In this document: in pieces, positions 21,810 through 29,494 of the stretch
How the letters are laid out: each line of letters starts with the position of its first letter
Position numbering within the stretch: the first letter of the stretch is position 1
Source of the DNA: Gammaproteobacteria bacterium
GTDB lineage: Bacteria; Pseudomonadota; Gammaproteobacteria; Pseudomonadales; Halieaceae
DNA length: 36,691 nucleotides
Assembly: GCA_003646405.1 (NCBI GenBank)
Contig: QNFR01000015.1
Location: 1-36,691 of the forward strand
Direction: 5' to 3'
Notes under the pieces: model-generated
The model's database searches: none
What the model was told of the DNA's origin: nothing
The model's input: the letters and a program-made list of their open reading frames with translations, nothing else
Translations under genes and position numbers: made by a program

Positions 21810-23996
21810 TCAAGCACCAGCACGGTGCGTGATTAACCAGCAGCGGTGGATTTTGCGATTGCGCTGAAAGTCGGGACCCAGGGTTTGTGCGCTGATGTCC
21901 TCACAACAGAACTCATCCTGCAGGGCCGCGTCCAGATGGAAGCCGCGGCGGTTATTGGAAAAGTATAGCCGCCCGCTTTCGTGCAATACAGCCATGGTGG
22001 CGCGCACCAGATCCGGGTGATCGCGCTGCACATCGAAGCTATCATCCATGCCTTTGGAGTTCGAGAAAGAAGGCGGGTCCAGCAGGATCAGGTCGTAGCG
22101 GTGCTGCGCCTGCTCCAGCCAACGCAGGCAGTCGGCCTTGACCAGGGTATTGCGAGTTTCATCCAATCCGTTGTGAGCAAGATTTTTGCGCAGCCAGTTG
22201 ATATAGGTATTGGACATATCCACACTCGTCGTCGAGCGAGCGCCACCCAGGGCGGCATGCACGCTGGCACTGCCGGTGTAACAAAAGAGGTTCAGAAAAT
22301 CCCTGCCGTCAGCCTCCCTGCCGATGCGCAGTCGCAGCGACCGGTGATCCAGAAAAAGCCCGGTATCGAGGTAATCATGCAGGTTTACCAGCAGCTTCGC
22401 CCGCCCCTCGCTGACACTCAACAACTCTCCGCGAGCCGCCTGTTTTTCGTATTGCTCAATACCGCGTTGCCGGCGGCGCTGCTTGTAAACAATCGATTCA
22501 GGGGATACACCGAGCACCACCGGCAACGCCACGCGCACCTCGTCCATCCTGCGCGTTGCCGCATCCGGGTCCACCCCACGGGGAGCCTTGTATTCCGCCA
22601 CATGCACCTGCCCGCCATATAAATCCACTGCCACCGCATACTCGGGCATGTCCGCATCGTACAGACGATAGCATTCCACTTGCTCGCGCTTTACCCACTT
22701 AGCCAGGCGCTTACGATTTTTGCCCACGCGGTTGGCGAACATTTGTGCACCTTCAGACAGGGAGTCCGGGGCGAGTTGGACCGCGGTCGTAGCCGCTACC
22801 GACCCACGCAGTTCATTATCACTCAGGTCAAACAACAACAGACTGGCGGCAATAGCGCCGTTGTACATGGCATAGCGCTTGTAGCTGCGCAGGCCGGTGG
22901 CCCTGCCCAGGTCCAGGTCGGAGGTAAATATAGCCGCCTGCCAACCCGTGAATTCCACCAGCATTTTCTCACCGAGCTGTCTGTACAGATAGACAAGGCT
23001 CTCTTTCTCCCCGAGACGTTCCCCGTAGGGTGGATTGCAAACCACCAGCCCCAGGGGCATGGGTTGGTGTGTAGGCTTACTCAATTCAGCCACTGGCCTG
23101 CAACTCACCCGCACAACTTTTTCCAGCCCAATGCGCGCGATATTTTCCTGGGCACGACGAATGACTTTCGGGTCTGCATCGTATCCACGGATCTGTGGGA
23201 GTTGCGCCGCCCTGCCCCGTTCCGCGCGACCCCGGGCATCGCTGAGTATCGCCTGCCACTGTTGTTCGTTGTGGGAGTGCAAATGTTCGAAGCCGAAGCG
23301 CTTTCTGCCCAGCCCGGGGGCTATATCGGCCACCATCATGGCCGCCTCCAGCAACAGGGTGGCGGAACCGCACATGGGATCGACCAGCGCGCCGCCGCGA
23401 GCGGCGATATTCGGCCAGTCCGCACGCAGCAGAATGGCCGCGGCCAGGTTTTCCTTCAGTGGAGCGACTCCCGCCCGCAGGCGATAGCCACGCTGGTGCA
23501 AACTACCGCCAGAGAAATCGATAGACAGCTGCGCCCGGTCCCTGACCAGACGGATGTTAAGCCTGATATCCGGATTGTGCCGCTCTACTGAAGGTCGCTG
23601 GCCAACTTTAGCCACAAACCAGTCAACAATGGCGTCTTTGCTGCGCTGGGCGCCAAACTGGGTGTTACGAATCTCGTGGTTCTGGCCGGAAAAATCGATC
23701 GCTATACTCTGCTGTGGCCCAAACATGTCGGCCCAGTCAATACCGCTCAATTCACGGTAAAGGGTGTCCCCATCACCAGCCTCAAGGCTGGCGATGGGCG
23801 CCAGAATACGATTGGCCAGGCGTGACCAGAGGCAGGCTCGATAAGCCAGCGCCTGTGGGCCATCGAAATACACACCGGCCACAGTTTCACGGGTGGCACT
23901 GGCCCCCATAGCCGACAATTCCGCCGCCAGCAGGGCTTCCAGCCCTTTGGGGCAGGCCGCAAACCATGGCTCTTTTGCTGTTTTACTCACAGGCAC
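21810..23996 (-). CDS. rlmKL: Bifunctional 23S rRNA m2G2445 / m7G2069 methyltransferase
   Basis: This 728-residue fusion enzyme modifies two guanines of 23S rRNA, as in E. coli RlmKL. The N-terminal half has a THUMP RNA-binding domain (about 45-155) and the RlmL methyltransferase with catalytic motif NPPYGER (Asn321). The C-terminal half is RlmK, with FLNLFCYTGSASVHAALGGA for SAM binding and DPPSFSNSKGM at about 640-650. The start is GTG at 23996, with GAGGA upstream; a second GTG two codons later is an alternative. The length is as expected for the fusion. A 104-base AT-rich gap separates it from the upstream HTH gene and probably holds its own promoter. Confidence 0.95.
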   Translation of the reverse strand: MPVSKTAKEPWFAACPKGLEALLAAELSAMGASATRETVAGVYFDGPQALAYRACLWSRLANRILAPIASLEAGDGDTLYRELSGIDWADMFGPQQSIAIDFSGQNHEIRNTQFGAQRSKDAIVDWFVAKVGQRPSVERHNPDIRLNIRLVRDRAQLSIDFSGGSLHQRGYRLRAGVAPLKENLAAAILLRADWPNIAARGGALVDPMCGSATLLLEAAMMVADIAPGLGRKRFGFEHLHSHNEQQWQAILSDARGRAERGRAAQLPQIRGYDADPKVIRRAQENIARIGLEKVVRVSCRPVAELSKPTHQPMPLGLVVCNPPYGERLGEKESLVYLYRQLGEKMLVEFTGWQAAIFTSDLDLGRATGLRSYKRYAMYNGAIAASLLLFDLSDNELRGSVAATTAVQLAPDSLSEGAQMFANRVGKNRKRLAKWVKREQVECYRLYDADMPEYAVAVDLYGGQVHVAEYKAPRGVDPDAATRRMDEVRVALPVVLGVSPESIVYKQRRRQRGIEQYEKQAARGELLSVSEGRAKLLVNLHDYLDTGLFLDHRSLRLRIGREADGRDFLNLFCYTGSASVHAALGGARSTTSVDMSNTYINWLRKNLAHNGLDETRNTLVKADCLRWLEQAQHRYDLILLDPPSFSNSKGMDDSFDVQRDHPDLVRATMAVLHESGRLYFSNNRRGFHLDAALQDEFCCEDISAQTLGPDFQRNRKIHRCWLITHRAGA

Positions 23997-24025
23997 CCGG
24001 CTATGTCCTCGATTGGAAGAAGTAA

Positions 24026-24044
24026 AATAAATATCATATTTATT
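24026..24044. promoter_or_regulatory. AT-only palindrome upstream of rlmKL
   Basis: AATAAATA-TCA-TATTTATT is a perfect 8-bp inverted repeat 30 bases before the rlmKL start codon. It lies in a 104-base AT-rich gap between two minus-strand genes. It may be a regulator binding site or part of the promoter region; no protein can be named. Confidence 0.4.
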
Positions 24045-24100
24045 AAGAAGTTATAGCTTTTAGTTAAAGAAAATTAATGGTTTATGTTATACCTACGATC

Positions 24101-24847
24101 TCAAGGTTGTTTGCGCTTCGCAACAGGTGTCCGCTTAGGTTTGCGCGGAGCGGCCTTTTGCCTCGGCGCTTTGGCTTTGATGATGGCCTTGGCCTTGGCT
24201 TTGACAGCCGGGCCTGCGCCCTTACTATCGGCCTGTCGCTGCGCACTGGCCGCTTTCTCTTTTTGCATGACGTCCAGCACCAGATTACCGGAACTCTCCA
24301 TGTAGTGAATGAAACGCTCATACTCGTCATCAGTCAGGCTTCTGAGCACGTCGTGCTGACGATACAGGTTAACAAAACGCCGCTCTCGCTCGTATTGCCT
24401 GGGCAGTGCGAGTACGCCCCACTGCTCCAGGGTCTTCTCCAAAGCCGGATTGTAAGTGCGCATGAACTTGATCAGGAACGGAATAGGATCATGCCGGGCC
24501 AGCAGTGAGGCACTGCGTAACATTAGCTCCAGCGGCATGATTGTTGAGCCGCTTTCGATATCTTCCAGCACGGCCTTGTCCGACAAACCCAGGCTCTCGG
24601 ACAAATCCTTGATCGACATCCCCGCCGTTTCCCGGGCATCCTTCAGAAAATGACCGGCATCCGCCATCGCTTCCAGCCGCTCGGGCTCGAGTTGGTTCAG
24701 TACGGCAGTACGCAGCCAACTCTCGCCAAACATCGCGGTCATGGTCGCGGTATTGCGTGCCAACCCCAACGTGCCACCGGCGACCTGCCCGGTGACATTT
24801 TTCAGAGTCTGCAGCAGCGACTCGTGTTCATTATCTTCAGTGGCCAT
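24101..24847 (-). CDS. HTH (XRE-like) protein with basic histone-like tail
   Basis: This 248-residue protein is not a named family to me. Residues 67-116 form an XRE/Cro-type helix-turn-helix (LKDARETAGMSIKDLSESLG, then LSDKAVLEDIESGS). Residues 117-195 look helical (FLIKFMRTYNPALEKTLEQW). The last 44 residues (205-248) are Lys/Ala/Pro/Arg-rich with about 15 basic residues and KAKAK-like repeats, resembling eukaryotic H1 or bacterial histone-like tails such as AlgP. It probably binds DNA. It starts 21 bases after the exported-protein gene and so is probably last in that operon. The tail lies at the 3' end, where simple-repeat codons make length changes likely. Confidence 0.78.
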   Translation of the reverse strand: MATEDNEHESLLQTLKNVTGQVAGGTLGLARNTATMTAMFGESWLRTAVLNQLEPERLEAMADAGHFLKDARETAGMSIKDLSESLGLSDKAVLEDIESGSTIMPLELMLRSASLLARHDPIPFLIKFMRTYNPALEKTLEQWGVLALPRQYERERRFVNLYRQHDVLRSLTDDEYERFIHYMESSGNLVLDVMQKEKAASAQRQADSKGAGPAVKAKAKAIIKAKAPRQKAAPRKPKRTPVAKRKQP

Positions 24848-24868
24848 AACGGGGCAGCATAGCAGAAA

Positions 24869-25975
24869 TCAGGCGTCGGGCGTCAGGCCCGTCTCGAGAA
24901 CAAATATTTGCTGCAGAATATCCCGCCACTCGGTGTATTGCGTATCCAGCGTGCCGTTGAGCCTGAAAACTTTGCCACTGACCTCCATGACGGTGGGCGC
25001 TACCTCATTGTTAAAGCCAAGCGCCAATTCATCCAGGTCCTGTTCATGTATTTTCGACCATTTGTAGGCATCGTAGGTCTGCTCCATCGCGGCAAAGGTA
25101 CCGCGCTTTCCCCGTCGCTCCCTGTTCGCCGCACGATCTTCATAACTTTCCCTGTAGAGCGCCTGTTCCCTGCCGAATTGCCGCCACATGTTATAGGTGG
25201 GCGCCATCTCCTCATAGAGTGCGGCGTACTGCTCATCCACCGTATCAATAAAGAGGTATTCCTGATTCCTGATCTTGCTGACCCGCTCCATCATGGGATC
25301 ATCCGCGGCGGGCAGGCGCGCCAGGATATACGTGCCGCCCGCAGTTTGAGACAGGTAGCCCGCAAAAACCTCCGGTGACAAGCTGGCGGCGTAACGTATC
25401 AGACCCACCTGGCGGATATTACGCAGTTCCTTACTACCCAGACGCTGCTTCATGGCCAGCATTTCATTGGCTATCTGGTGATACAGGTCCTGGTAGGGGT
25501 CATCCCCTGCGGCCACCGGATAGTCGCCCGGGGAGGTCTCGTCCACATACACCTTGTCCAGCCAGAGCCGACCGGTGGCATCGTGTACCCGTATTTGCAG
25601 TGCCAGGCGCAAGCCATCCGAGTGCAGTATCCTGCCGGTGACCAACAGTTCTGATGAATTCAATGTTTCGGGTAAAACCCGCACCACGCCCCAGGCAGCC
25701 GATTTGAGCAACACCTGACGCAGTATCACCGGCATAAACTTGGCTTCGGATTTGCGTATCTCCGGAAAAATGCCCAATTTACTATGGGTCGATGCATCCT
25801 TGGGGATGCCGGGATCGAAAATCACCACCCCCACGTCCAACACCATCTCCGCAGACGACTGCCGGTCAATCTTCAACGGAACACCGCTGACCGAGGCCTG
25901 CGCGAAGCCGGCTCGCAGGGTCACGCCAAGCGTGCACAGGCACACAAAAATCAACCATCTCGACAATCGCATCAT
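24869..25975 (-). CDS. Uncharacterised exported protein
   Basis: This 368-residue protein has an N-terminal signal peptide (WLIFVCLCTLGVTL core, likely cleaved after FAQA near residue 27). The next ~140 residues read as alternating strands and helices, including MVLDVGVVIFDPGIP and ELLVTGRILHSDGLRLALQI. This recalls the TolB-N/CsgG-like fold of periplasmic proteins, but only weakly. The C-terminal third is charged and helical (EQALYRESYEDRAANRERRG). The frame stays open 22 codons upstream, but the ATG at 25975 is preferred: it overlaps the lipoprotein stop as ATGA, and what follows is a normal signal peptide. The second ATG at 25972 is equally possible. Function unknown. Confidence 0.8.
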   Translation of the reverse strand: MMRLSRWLIFVCLCTLGVTLRAGFAQASVSGVPLKIDRQSSAEMVLDVGVVIFDPGIPKDASTHSKLGIFPEIRKSEAKFMPVILRQVLLKSAAWGVVRVLPETLNSSELLVTGRILHSDGLRLALQIRVHDATGRLWLDKVYVDETSPGDYPVAAGDDPYQDLYHQIANEMLAMKQRLGSKELRNIRQVGLIRYAASLSPEVFAGYLSQTAGGTYILARLPAADDPMMERVSKIRNQEYLFIDTVDEQYAALYEEMAPTYNMWRQFGREQALYRESYEDRAANRERRGKRGTFAAMEQTYDAYKWSKIHEQDLDELALGFNNEVAPTVMEVSGKVFRLNGTLDTQYTEWRDILQQIFVLETGLTPDA

Positions 25976-26733
25976 TGGGGTGCGGGCTCGGGTGCAGGTT
26001 CGGGTGTGGTTGCGGGCGTGGATGCAGATTGGGTGGAACATACTCTACCCTTGGTCAGTGTCATCTTACAGGAGAAACCGCTGCCACCTGGCACAAAGCG
26101 GTTATAGACCCTGTTGAGGGTGAATGGGTAAGAAACTTGGTCAGAAACAACGGTCGTGGCGACGTTGAGTTTCCCGCCAAAGGACGCCAGCGTCATTACG
26201 TGTTGAATGCTGAGCCCTTCGGGGAGCAATATCTTGAACACGAGCTGGTGGCCGTTCCAGCCGCAAATCTCGGTACCAAGCGGTGTCTCCACGGTTTTGT
26301 ACTGGCCGGCATAAAACTCACAAGTCAGCGCGAAGTTTTCCTCGCGCTTCACCTTAATCTTGTGCTCACTCTGCTGGATCTTCAGCAATGGTGAGCGGGT
26401 GATCAAATCCGACATCCGTGCCAGGCCTATAATAGACGGCGCACTGTTGGTTCCGGCCGCACCGCCAACCATTATCGCACCCTGATTACCACCCGTGCGA
26501 TCCGCATGGCGTCGCAACTCCCGCACCATCGAATCGAGCTTGGTCTGGATATTGTCGCTCTGGCTGTAATCCAGTTCCCATGAACCACCGAAGTCCACGT
26601 CGTCACTGCTCTGGCCCTGCAGAACCACGGTTTTCTTTTTTTGTCGACCACCATCACTACTACAGCTAACCAGCAGCAGACAACCGGTCAACAACAGGAT
26701 GATAATTTTTATGGGCAGGCGTGGCAAATTCAT
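25972..26733 (-). CDS. Uncharacterised lipoprotein
   Basis: This is a 253-residue lipoprotein. The lipobox LVSC ends at Cys24 after a hydrophobic helix (IIILLLTGCLLLVSC). Ser follows the cysteine, so Lol sorting to the outer membrane is expected. The mature part begins with a basic linker, then FGGSWELDYSQSDN, reminiscent of the GxWxLD opening of small beta-barrel domains. Four cysteines in the mature chain (TCEF, EICGW, FSCKM, RVCST) could form disulfides. The C-terminus is a Thr/Pro/Glu/Ala repeat (TPEPAPEPAPQ). It is first in the lipoprotein/exported/HTH operon and is divergent from ppdK across 154 bases. Its ribosome site is weak. Function unknown. Confidence 0.8.
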   Translation of the reverse strand: MNLPRLPIKIIILLLTGCLLLVSCSSDGGRQKKKTVVLQGQSSDDVDFGGSWELDYSQSDNIQTKLDSMVRELRRHADRTGGNQGAIMVGGAAGTNSAPSIIGLARMSDLITRSPLLKIQQSEHKIKVKREENFALTCEFYAGQYKTVETPLGTEICGWNGHQLVFKILLPEGLSIQHVMTLASFGGKLNVATTVVSDQVSYPFTLNRVYNRFVPGGSGFSCKMTLTKGRVCSTQSASTPATTPEPAPEPAPQ

Positions 26734-26828
26734 AACGGTGGGTAGTGTACCTCAAGGTCTATGTAAAAGACGACCACCACACACTATTTACATCATAATT
26801 CCTGGTATGCCTCCCGCATCGGGGACTG

Positions 26829-26851
26829 AGCCGATATACTTGCCATCGGCT
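26829..26851. promoter_or_regulatory. Inverted repeat upstream of ppdK
   Basis: AGCCGAT-N9-ATCGGCT, a perfect 7-bp inverted repeat, ends 36 bases before the ppdK ATG in the divergent gap between ppdK and the lipoprotein gene. It could be an operator or a hairpin in the 5' untranslated region. No T-run follows. Confidence 0.35.
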
Positions 26852-26887
26852 AGAGAAAGCAAACATGACCAGCCCTGAGGAACACCC

Positions 26888-29494
26888 ATGGCGAAGCGCG
26901 TATACCTGTTCAACGAAGGCAGCAAGGACGACCGGGATCTGTTGGGCGGCAAAGGTGCCAACCTGTGCGAGATGACCAGCATGGGACTGCCCGTTCCCTT
27001 CGGTTTCATCATCACCACCAGCACCTGCCACGAATTCTTCCAGGCCGGCAACAAGTTGCCTTCGTTACTGGAGCAGGAATACCGGGTCGCCCTGGACCTG
27101 GTGGAAAAGAAAATGGGCGCGCGCTTTGGCGACCCGGAAAACCCGCTACTGTTCTCCGTTCGCTCCGGCGCGCCGGTTTCCATGCCCGGGATGATGAATA
27201 CTATCCTCAATCTGGGCCTCAATGACGAGATCACCGAAGGTCTGGCAAAGAAAACCGGTAATCCCCGCTTCGCCTATGACTCCTATCGCCGCTTCATTCA
27301 GATGTTCGCCGACGTGGTGATGGATGTGGACGGCAAGAAGTTCGAACATGAACTCAACCAGTACAAAACCGCCCACGGCAAAACTCTGGACGTGGATATG
27401 ACTGCCGAAGACTGGCGGGAAATCGTCCGCATCTACAAAACCCTGGTGGACTTCCCGGAAGACCCCTTCGTACAACTCAAGATGGCTGTACAAGCGGTGT
27501 TCATGTCCTGGCACACACCACGAGCCATCGTCTACCGGGAGATGAACAACATCCCCGACAATCTGGGCACGGCAGTCAGCGTACAGTCTATGGTATTCGG
27601 CAACTTCGGCGATGATTCCGGCTCCGGTGTGGCATTTACCCGTAACCCATCGACCGGCGAACATCAGTTCTTCGGCGAATACCTGTTCAACGCGGCCGGT
27701 GAAGATGTGGTGGCGGGGATTCGCACCCCACTGCCCGTGGCGGCGCTGGGGGAGCGCATGCCGGAGATTTACGACGAGTTGTTCAAGACCCAGGCCCAGC
27801 TGGAAAAACACTATCGGGATATGCAGGACATTGAGTTCACCGTACAGAAAGGTGTGTTCTACATGCTGCAGACCCGCAGCGGCAAACGCACCGGTCGGGC
27901 TGCGGTGAAGATTGCCGTAGAGATGGTTAAAGAGGGGCTGATCACCGAGAGCGAAGCATTGATGCGCGTGTCCACAGACCATGTTGAAGCGTTTTTGCAT
28001 CCCATGGTGGACCCGACGGCCAAGACTGATATCGTCGCCACCGGACTGGCCGCCAGCCCCGGTGGCTCCACCGGGCAGGTGGTGTTCTCCGCGGAAGAGG
28101 CGGAAGATGAAGCGGCCCAAGGCCACAGTGTCATATTGGTGCGCAGGGAGACAACCCCCGAAGACATCCACGGTATGCGGGTGGCCGCGGGTATACTCAC
28201 CGAGCTGGGCGGCATGACGTCACATGCCGCGGTGGTGGCAAGAGGCATGGGCGTGTGCGCCATAACGGGCTGCGATGCGCTGAGCGTGGATTACGCGGCG
28301 GGCACCGCCACCACCACGGACGGCGTGGTCATCAAACGCGGTGATATCATCACCCTGGACGGCACCTCCGGCGAAGTCATGCTGGGCGATATCGCCAAGA
28401 CCGAGGCCAGTTCCAGCGATGACTTCCAGACCCTGCTGTCCTGGGCGGACAAGCACCGCAGGCTCAAGGTCCGGGCCAATGCGGAAACGCCCGAAGATGC
28501 CGCCAAGGCCAGGGAATTGGGCGCCGAGGGCATAGGCCTGTGCCGCACCGAGCACATGTTTTTCGCCGCCGACCGTATCGACGTCATGCGCGCCATGATT
28601 CTGTCCGAGAGCAGGGAGGAGCGACAAACCTTCCTGGACCAGTTACTGACATTCCAGCACGATGACATACTGGAATTGTTCAGGGTAATGGACGGCCTGC
28701 CGGTAACGATTCGCCTGCTGGACCCGCCCCTGCACGAATTTCTGCCCCAGACCGAGGAGGATATCAACGCCCTGGCACAGCGGATTGGCAAGCCGGCGGA
28801 CAAAATCCGGGAAATTGCCGGACGCCTGAAAGAGGTCAATCCCATGCTGGGCTTTCGTGGCTGCCGCCTGTCAGTGGTTTACCCGGAAATCACTGAAATG
28901 CAGGTCAAGGCCATTATTGGCGCCGCGGTGGACGCTACCGAGCAGGGCTGCAGGCCCCTGCCTGAAATCATGATTCCGTTGGTCATCAACGTGCGCGAAA
29001 TCCGCCTGGTCACCGAGATCATCGACAAGGGCATCCACGAAATCCTGAAAGAGAAGAACATTTCCATCCCCTACAAGATCGGCACCATGATGGAAACGCC
29101 CCGCGCCACTCTGGGCGCACACCGCCTGGCGCCGGAAGTCGAGTTTATGAGCTTTGGCACCAATGACCTGACCCAGATGACCTACGGCTTTTCCCGTGAC
29201 GACGCCGGCAAGTTCATACCCCGGTATCTGGAGAAAAAACTCATTGATGCCGACCCCTTTGTCACACTGGACCAGCGAGCGGTGGGCCGCCTGATGGAAA
29301 TCGCGGTGAACGAAAGCCGAGCGAAGAAGAAAGGCATCAAGTATGGCATCTGCGGTGAGCACGGCGGCGACCCCCGCTCTATCCGCTTCTGCCACGACCT
29401 GGGCCTGGATTATGTATCGTGCAGTCCATTTCGGGTGCCCATCGCCAGGATCGCAGCGGCCCAGGCAAATGTGGGATTTGAACCCAACGACTGA
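26888..29494 (+). CDS. ppdK: Pyruvate, phosphate dikinase
   Basis: PPDK interconverts pyruvate, ATP and phosphate with phosphoenolpyruvate, AMP and pyrophosphate, serving gluconeogenesis or glycolysis. It has 868 residues, close to the usual length. The N-terminal ATP-grasp domain begins KRVYLFNEGSKDDRDLLGGK. The phospho-carrier histidine is His446 in GGMTSHAAVVARGMG; the Thr444 before it is the site used by regulatory kinases in other PPDKs. The C-terminal PEP/pyruvate barrel holds Cys822 in YGICGEHGGDPRS. GAGGAA lies 6 bases before the ATG. No PPDK regulatory protein gene is in this window. It is transcribed alone. Confidence 0.97.
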   Translation: MAKRVYLFNEGSKDDRDLLGGKGANLCEMTSMGLPVPFGFIITTSTCHEFFQAGNKLPSLLEQEYRVALDLVEKKMGARFGDPENPLLFSVRSGAPVSMPGMMNTILNLGLNDEITEGLAKKTGNPRFAYDSYRRFIQMFADVVMDVDGKKFEHELNQYKTAHGKTLDVDMTAEDWREIVRIYKTLVDFPEDPFVQLKMAVQAVFMSWHTPRAIVYREMNNIPDNLGTAVSVQSMVFGNFGDDSGSGVAFTRNPSTGEHQFFGEYLFNAAGEDVVAGIRTPLPVAALGERMPEIYDELFKTQAQLEKHYRDMQDIEFTVQKGVFYMLQTRSGKRTGRAAVKIAVEMVKEGLITESEALMRVSTDHVEAFLHPMVDPTAKTDIVATGLAASPGGSTGQVVFSAEEAEDEAAQGHSVILVRRETTPEDIHGMRVAAGILTELGGMTSHAAVVARGMGVCAITGCDALSVDYAAGTATTTDGVVIKRGDIITLDGTSGEVMLGDIAKTEASSSDDFQTLLSWADKHRRLKVRANAETPEDAAKARELGAEGIGLCRTEHMFFAADRIDVMRAMILSESREERQTFLDQLLTFQHDDILELFRVMDGLPVTIRLLDPPLHEFLPQTEEDINALAQRIGKPADKIREIAGRLKEVNPMLGFRGCRLSVVYPEITEMQVKAIIGAAVDATEQGCRPLPEIMIPLVINVREIRLVTEIIDKGIHEILKEKNISIPYKIGTMMETPRATLGAHRLAPEVEFMSFGTNDLTQMTYGFSRDDAGKFIPRYLEKKLIDADPFVTLDQRAVGRLMEIAVNESRAKKKGIKYGICGEHGGDPRSIRFCHDLGLDYVSCSPFRVPIARIAAAQANVGFEPND

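Follow-up and report, generated by a model that had tools for sequence, protein, structure and literature searches.

The described proteins that come closest to those encoded at the locus reported here fall into two structural groups. The first is the FABP family, the fold of which is given as ten antiparallel strands with a helix-turn-helix cap in an account that, where it deals with distribution, treats the family as seemingly metazoan only and bacterial members as unreported (PMC6646235). The second comprises the CsgG, TolB-N and DUF330 families, which one paper lists as members of a single Pfam clan (PMC3173608).

Here, a stretch of DNA from a member of the Halieaceae, a family placed in the Cellvibrionales by NCBI taxonomy, was analysed; the stretch, referred to throughout as the window, spans 36,691 nucleotides and belongs to contig C15 of a 2.9-Mb genome. 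An initial annotation, made from the sequence alone, had drawn attention to three genes within it (A, B and C), hinting at an envelope module equipped with a dedicated regulator or nucleoid protein. The analysis bears out the envelope pair, A and B, but not the role assigned to C.

Gene layout and distribution of A, B and C

The tight succession of the three genes on the minus strand was confirmed from their coordinates and spacing (Table 1), with the ATG of gene B sharing the motif ATGA with the TGA of gene A, and gene C starting 21 bases past the gene B stop codon. The gene that we take to be rlmL lies on the same strand as C after a gap of 104 bases, and the divergent gene presumed to encode PPDK is separated from A by 154 bases. 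A, B and C are regarded as real genes: A and B homologues keep their frame and order in all of the named loci, which are the best 80 of 107 loci encoding B relatives, A has a lipobox, B has a signal peptide and C has an HTH match (below).

Table 1. Positions and attributes of the genes discussed, numbered within the window
Feature	Position	Strand	Length	Attributes
Gene A, candidate outer-membrane lipoprotein	25972..26733	-	253 aa	Lipobox LVSC with Cys24; predicted FABP/calycin-type beta-barrel with two-helix lid; invariant Cys 138, 157, 222 and 232
Gene B, exported protein	24869..25975	-	368 aa	Predicted domains: mature 4-158, TolB-N/CsgG/PelC/PqiC-like; mature 200-294, long helical hairpin; C-terminal beta-hairpin and helix
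Gene C, XRE-type HTH protein	24101..24847	-	248 aa	Lys/Ala/Pro-rich basic tail
rlmL homologue adjoining C (presumably 23S rRNA methyltransferase)	21810..23996	-		Downstream of C
PPDK (presumably pyruvate phosphate dikinase)	26888..29494	+		Divergent, upstream of A; left-hand boundary of the A-B cassette

The intergenic stretch of 104 bases from C to the start of rlmL (23997-24100) is markedly richer in A+T than the surrounding genes and, on that basis, is likely to hold a promoter region for rlmL; a consensus promoter scan picked no site there. Scans for promoters and terminators across 23700-27100 returned 4 against 2.5 and 4 against 3.5 on shuffled sequence, respectively, and, with counts so near to the shuffled expectation, no operon boundary was drawn from them. 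An Rfam search over the entire window gave 0 matches.

The distribution of the three genes was examined first among 100 genomes drawn from the Halieaceae: 85 encode A, 63 encode C and 99 a B-family protein. Among the matches listed, A and B are immediate neighbours in the same orientation in each of the 81 genomes with both. This count rests on 82 B rows, those judged to be of the paralogous B2 type (below) having been left out; four genomes (G146, G159, G199 and G200) have A with B uncounted, and one (G210) has B without a counted A, its B beginning at base 206 of the contig. Similarly, A is directly upstream of B in all of the best 80 of 107 loci, and outside the Halieaceae the pair is still together even where its flanks are wholly different. 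By co-occurrence and adjacency, then, A and B constitute a two-gene module.

A module of three genes was rejected by the same measures, C being downstream of A-B in 40 of the named loci (best 80 of 107), once at a distance of ~2.6 kb (L206), and absent from the other 40, and 6 of 30 fetched C-rlmL loci having no A-B beside them. The proposal that A, B and C form one functional envelope operon, with C as its dedicated regulator, does draw on real proximity: B and C are adjacent and co-oriented in 49 of the 57 Halieaceae genomes with both, among the matches listed, with C directly downstream of B at a spacing of 24-450 bases, compared with 21 in the window genome. However, besides the A-B loci that lack C, among 115 genomes sampled across the order C occurs in 17, 15 of them outside the Halieaceae, and A in 5, and A was found in none of those 15 C-bearing genomes of other families. 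Together with the C-rlmL loci described in the next section, these exceptions leave the three-gene operon very improbable. Of the two outcomes named beforehand as counting against a three-gene unit, genes lying apart in relatives was thus observed for C, whereas membership of known unrelated families was not observed for A or B. A and B are a pair, and C is a separable neighbour; the tight run of three genes in the window is not a single module.

Alignments were built for A (77 rows; 76 of the 80 fetched A rows kept, with near-duplicates and L205 left out) and B (78 rows; 77 of the 80 fetched B rows kept, with near-duplicates left out), giving mean column identities of 47% and 57%, respectively. 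Such strong conservation, combined with strict pairing in differing neighbourhoods, argues against neutral linkage. It likewise argues against the idea that A-B is a stress- or antibiotic-protection lipoprotein pair that has no specific ligand and is co-inherited neutrally, an idea with which the lack of a known family, the failure to find an enzyme motif and the variable flanks outside the Halieaceae would agree, and which is considered improbable.

In a class-wide draw of 321 genomes, B-family proteins were found in 23 and A in 3; two of these three A matches are weak, neither being from the window's genome. They are distant A-like exported proteins with the same first-strand motif, encoded at L246 1261-1992 (243 aa) and L247 1456-2160 (234 aa), and nothing B-like adjoins either of them in the flank that was fetched, which counts against the reading of A and B as one unit. 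A may belong to a wider family of exported barrels.

Gene C and the PPDK-C-rlmL interval

The description of C as a DNA-binding protein with a basic tail held up. The protein matches HTH_19/HTH_31 with an E-value of about 3e-5, which is below the Pfam cut-offs, and its 48-residue tail contains 16 K/R and 1 D/E; a sequence search of the C profile against solved structures returned generic HTH domains only. C shares the HTH_19/HTH_31 match with XRE-family HTH regulators, but differs from them in its long conserved C-terminal region, its basic tail and its sub-cut-off score. The basic Lys/Ala/Pro tail is C-terminal in the Halieaceae (24104-24240 in the window) and N-terminal in the homologues from G031 and G070 (L070 and L071).

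Neighbours of C were examined in 30 fetched Halieaceae loci, of 63 found, and a homologue of rlmL adjoins C in all 30. Six of these loci (G115, G142, G154, G180, G194 and G201) have neither A nor B in the fetched flank, and PPDK is on the other side of C in G115, G154 and G194 and farther off in G180, indicating that the interval PPDK-C-rlmL exists without A-B. Indeed, in G154 the A-B pair is located on a different contig and C is still found between PPDK and rlmL. A further seven Halieaceae C loci (G119, G121, G130, G131, G133, G143 and G157) have no rlmL in the fetched stretch, and rlmL is beside C in none of the 15 C loci outside the Halieaceae. These exceptions indicate that C is separable from every neighbour, that the C-rlmL link is a trait of the Halieaceae, and that A-B is a separable cassette. 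C is tied more tightly to rlmL than to A-B, and the A-B pair has been gained in or lost from the PPDK-C-rlmL interval. C itself resembles an independent XRE-type DNA-binding protein more than a regulator dedicated to A-B.

Predicted structure and export of A and B

The initial annotation had matched none of the three proteins to a named system. This stands for A and B, for which no credible family was found with Pfam or NCBIfam, and C is a generic XRE-type HTH protein. Profile searches and structure prediction, the checks proposed at that stage, placed neither A nor B in a sequence family and gave predicted folds that are FABP-like and TolB-N-like, respectively. Scattered matches of individual members, such as those of CLP1_P to 2 of the 77 A members (best E 0.0007) and of PRK12391 to 5 of the 78 B members (best E 0.0057), were taken as chance.

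With A, no lipocalin or FABP Pfam match was found among the 77 members at E-values up to 10, and a sequence search of the A profile against solved structures revealed no meaningful relative; FABPs are the top three of the seven PDB matches, with non-significant E-values of 0.39-0.70 and alignments out of register with the fold match. The AlphaFold model of A (pLDDT 84.8, pTM 0.75) comprises a strand (27-31), two helices (39-58 and 75-88) separated by a low-confidence Gly-rich loop (63-69), and then strands spanning 93-211, which together yield a predicted beta-barrel with a helix-turn-helix lid between strands one and two, and an extra C-terminal hairpin bearing Cys beyond the barrel. The four cysteines listed in Table 1 do not vary in any of the 77 rows, and a G-x-W motif in the first strand is present in 76, the remaining row having a gap. 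Conversely, the Pro-rich tail noted at the outset is present in the window protein and its nearest relative, but not in the other rows of a 14-row alignment.

Searches with the model returned FABP1/LFABP entries as the top nine Foldseek matches (E 2.0e-4 to 1.5e-3), at low TM-scores of about 0.33 (0.34 by query) and 0.53, and lipocalins and avidins were also among the Foldseek matches. The 50 VIA matches listed have Z-scores of 10.6-11.2 and titles that are nearly all those of fatty-acid- or retinol-binding proteins, the number of matches, though not Z, being inflated by a library rich in engineered FABP and retinol-binder variants; CRBP1 is the best (Z 11.2 over 115 residues, 2.4 A). A may therefore be a calycin in the broad sense. 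The carboxylate-binding motif of FABPs is R-x-Y, near the barrel end. In A, an Arg near the barrel end is conserved in only 53 of 77 rows and a Tyr there in only 58, which, with the non-significant sequence link, weakens the FABP reading, and a predicted fold shared with FABPs does not establish function.

The B protein of the window species has a signal peptide without a lipobox when read by eye. Its C-terminus had been described as charged; in the AlphaFold model (pLDDT 89.6, pTM 0.88), the charged part is instead an internal helical hairpin. Searches of solved structures with the B sequence and the B profile found no meaningful relative, and none of the TolB-N, CsgG, PelC or DUF330 models in Pfam or NCBIfam matched the 78 B members at E-values up to 0.1. 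Nevertheless, the alpha/beta domain typical of TolB-N, CsgG, PelC and DUF330 proteins is present in the model, Foldseek retrieving DUF330 XCC0632 (E 5.8e-4), TolB (6.1e-4) and PelC (7.3e-4) at a low TM-score of 0.26. The VIA search matched B to FlgT (Z 10.8 over 133 residues, 3.5 A), the LPHT ring (10.1), DUF330 (9.8), PelC (9.8 over 110 residues, 2.4 A), CsgG (9.3), TolB (8.9) and PqiC (8.3 over 126 residues, 4.2 A); the match to the TolB-N/CsgG/PelC/DUF330/PqiC/LptE/FlgT group covers residues 4-158.

A paralogue of B, referred to as B2, is encoded elsewhere in the window's genome (L055 9447-10655; 40% identity over 269 residues). Its setting is a conserved operon of some ten genes (L055 28-13142 on contig C23 of G000, and L056-L064), which encodes TPR proteins, a PEGA and FGE-sulfatase protein, a MotA/TolQ/ExbB protein, one protein of no recognised kind, two proteins with VWA or TolR-like N-termini (VWA_2 at E 4e-8 in one, the other recognised by eye) and then two further small lipoprotein-like proteins. 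By eye, one TPR protein has a C-terminal TonB-like domain, and in B2 a hydrophobic Gly/Ala-rich segment replaces the charged helical hairpin of B, which suggests a membrane-inserting variant. Of 10 fetched loci, clustering recognised B2 in 8 and the ExbB-like gene in 9; since a separate search places B2 in both remaining loci, the missing genes are attributed to gaps of the simple ORF caller. The operon resembles a Tol-like, energised machine of the envelope, to all appearances undescribed; a literature search on it found nothing. Dependence of A-B on the B2 operon was considered but is not supported: G126 (98% complete) and G188 (96%) have one B match only, and G142, G180, G194 and G201 are without A and retain B-family matches at the B2 level.

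The ring formers among the nearest folds of B (FlgT, the LPHT ring, the PelC dodecamer and CsgG), together with the operon in which B2 resides, are what would be expected if A-B served secretion or the building of surface structures, as a ring or assembly factor of the outer membrane like CsgG, PelC and FlgT, with A as a structural cap. However, the Halieaceae loci have no gene for an exported substrate, a polysaccharide synthase or a pilus next to A-B, the TolB-N fold is also found in the lipid-handling proteins PqiC and LptE, and the two-helix lid of A would be unexpected for a mere cap, such that an assembly factor is judged somewhat unlikely.

Identification of the LVSC lipobox supports the proposal that A of the window is a lipoprotein, a candidate for the outer membrane. 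Export and anchoring were tabulated by script for 81 pairs, comprising the window and the 80 loci (best 80 of 107). One or other export signal, lipobox or signal peptide, was called for A in 79 of the 81; of the others, L228 has its start cut off and L208 is mis-started and reads as having the lipobox LAGC. Candidate lipoboxes were called in both proteins in 34 pairs, in A only in 23, in B only in 22 and in neither in 2, a pattern that largely splits by clade and so may reflect few events. The two pairs in the last class were L208, in which A has the LAGC just mentioned, and L244, in which B has ...AAC among ambiguous bases when read by eye; after this correction, every readable pair has at least one member with a candidate lipobox. 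A is usually a lipoprotein in the Halieaceae, the window included, and in other lineages mostly has an ordinary signal peptide, B then having a Cys at the end of the signal core. Several other lipobox calls are doubtful: an ordinary signal peptide is more likely for B of L170, L172 and L173 and for A of L183, and a T, N, H or Q occurs close to the Cys at some B sites.

Proposed role and comparison with known systems

The explanation favoured here, tentatively and at a little under an even chance, is that A-B forms an outer-membrane-tethered unit, with A as the binder of a hydrophobic ligand, B as the scaffold and C outside the unit. The observed gene order, shared inheritance and export and lipidation signals, together with the predicted folds, are the basis from which the physical complex, the binding of a ligand and its hand-over are inferred. 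The two proteins would form a complex at the inner face of the outer membrane, held by a lipid anchor on A, B or both. A, as a lidded beta-barrel stabilised by disulphides, which would be expected to join Cys138 to Cys157 and Cys222 to Cys232, would bind a fatty acid or similar compound, as animal FABPs do, while the TolB-N/CsgG/PelC/PqiC-type domain of B, used by envelope proteins for outer-membrane assembly, would anchor or assemble the complex. B would dock A and either pass the ligand on or position A in the periplasm, into which the helical stalk of B could reach to receive or deliver ligand. C would be a cytoplasmic XRE-type DNA-binding protein of the rlmL neighbourhood.

A more specific version, which is considered unlikely, is that A is a bacterial outer-membrane-anchored counterpart of FABPs, with the same lidded barrel and mode of ligand binding, and with B constitutes an unrecognised shuttle for lipids or other hydrophobic ligands between the outer membrane and periplasm in marine Halieaceae and related Pseudomonadales. 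Were the tethered unit real, it would point to a previously unrecognised means of handling lipids at the outer membrane of bacteria abundant in the sea, and the question would arise whether the lidded barrel evolved twice, given that the FABP family is described, in the account cited above, as confined to animals (PMC6646235).

Compared with the Pqi phospholipid transport system (PMC10897342), no MCE protein or PqiA-like membrane protein was recognised beside A-B in the clustered loci, as judged from cluster lengths and starts. PqiC and B are nevertheless alike in being exported and in the N-terminal fold, which for B is predicted, and many B orthologues resemble PqiC further in being putative outer-membrane lipoproteins. 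With the wider group of TolB-N, CsgG, DUF330 (ABC_trans_aux, PqiC), PelC and FlgT proteins, B shares the predicted fold of residues 4-158, but it differs in having no Pfam match and in adding a helical hairpin of roughly 95 residues and a C-terminal hairpin-helix. A differs from the animal FABP/CRBP family in being a bacterial exported lipoprotein, FABPs being cytosolic and without a signal peptide, in its four invariant cysteines and extra Cys-bearing hairpin, and in the non-significance of the sequence similarity; conversely, its model has the strand-helix-helix-barrel order of FABPs and superimposes best on CRBP1. A literature search on A, B and their combination found no paper; the folds predicted for A and B are both already known, and it is their combination in one gene pair that is new to the literature searched.
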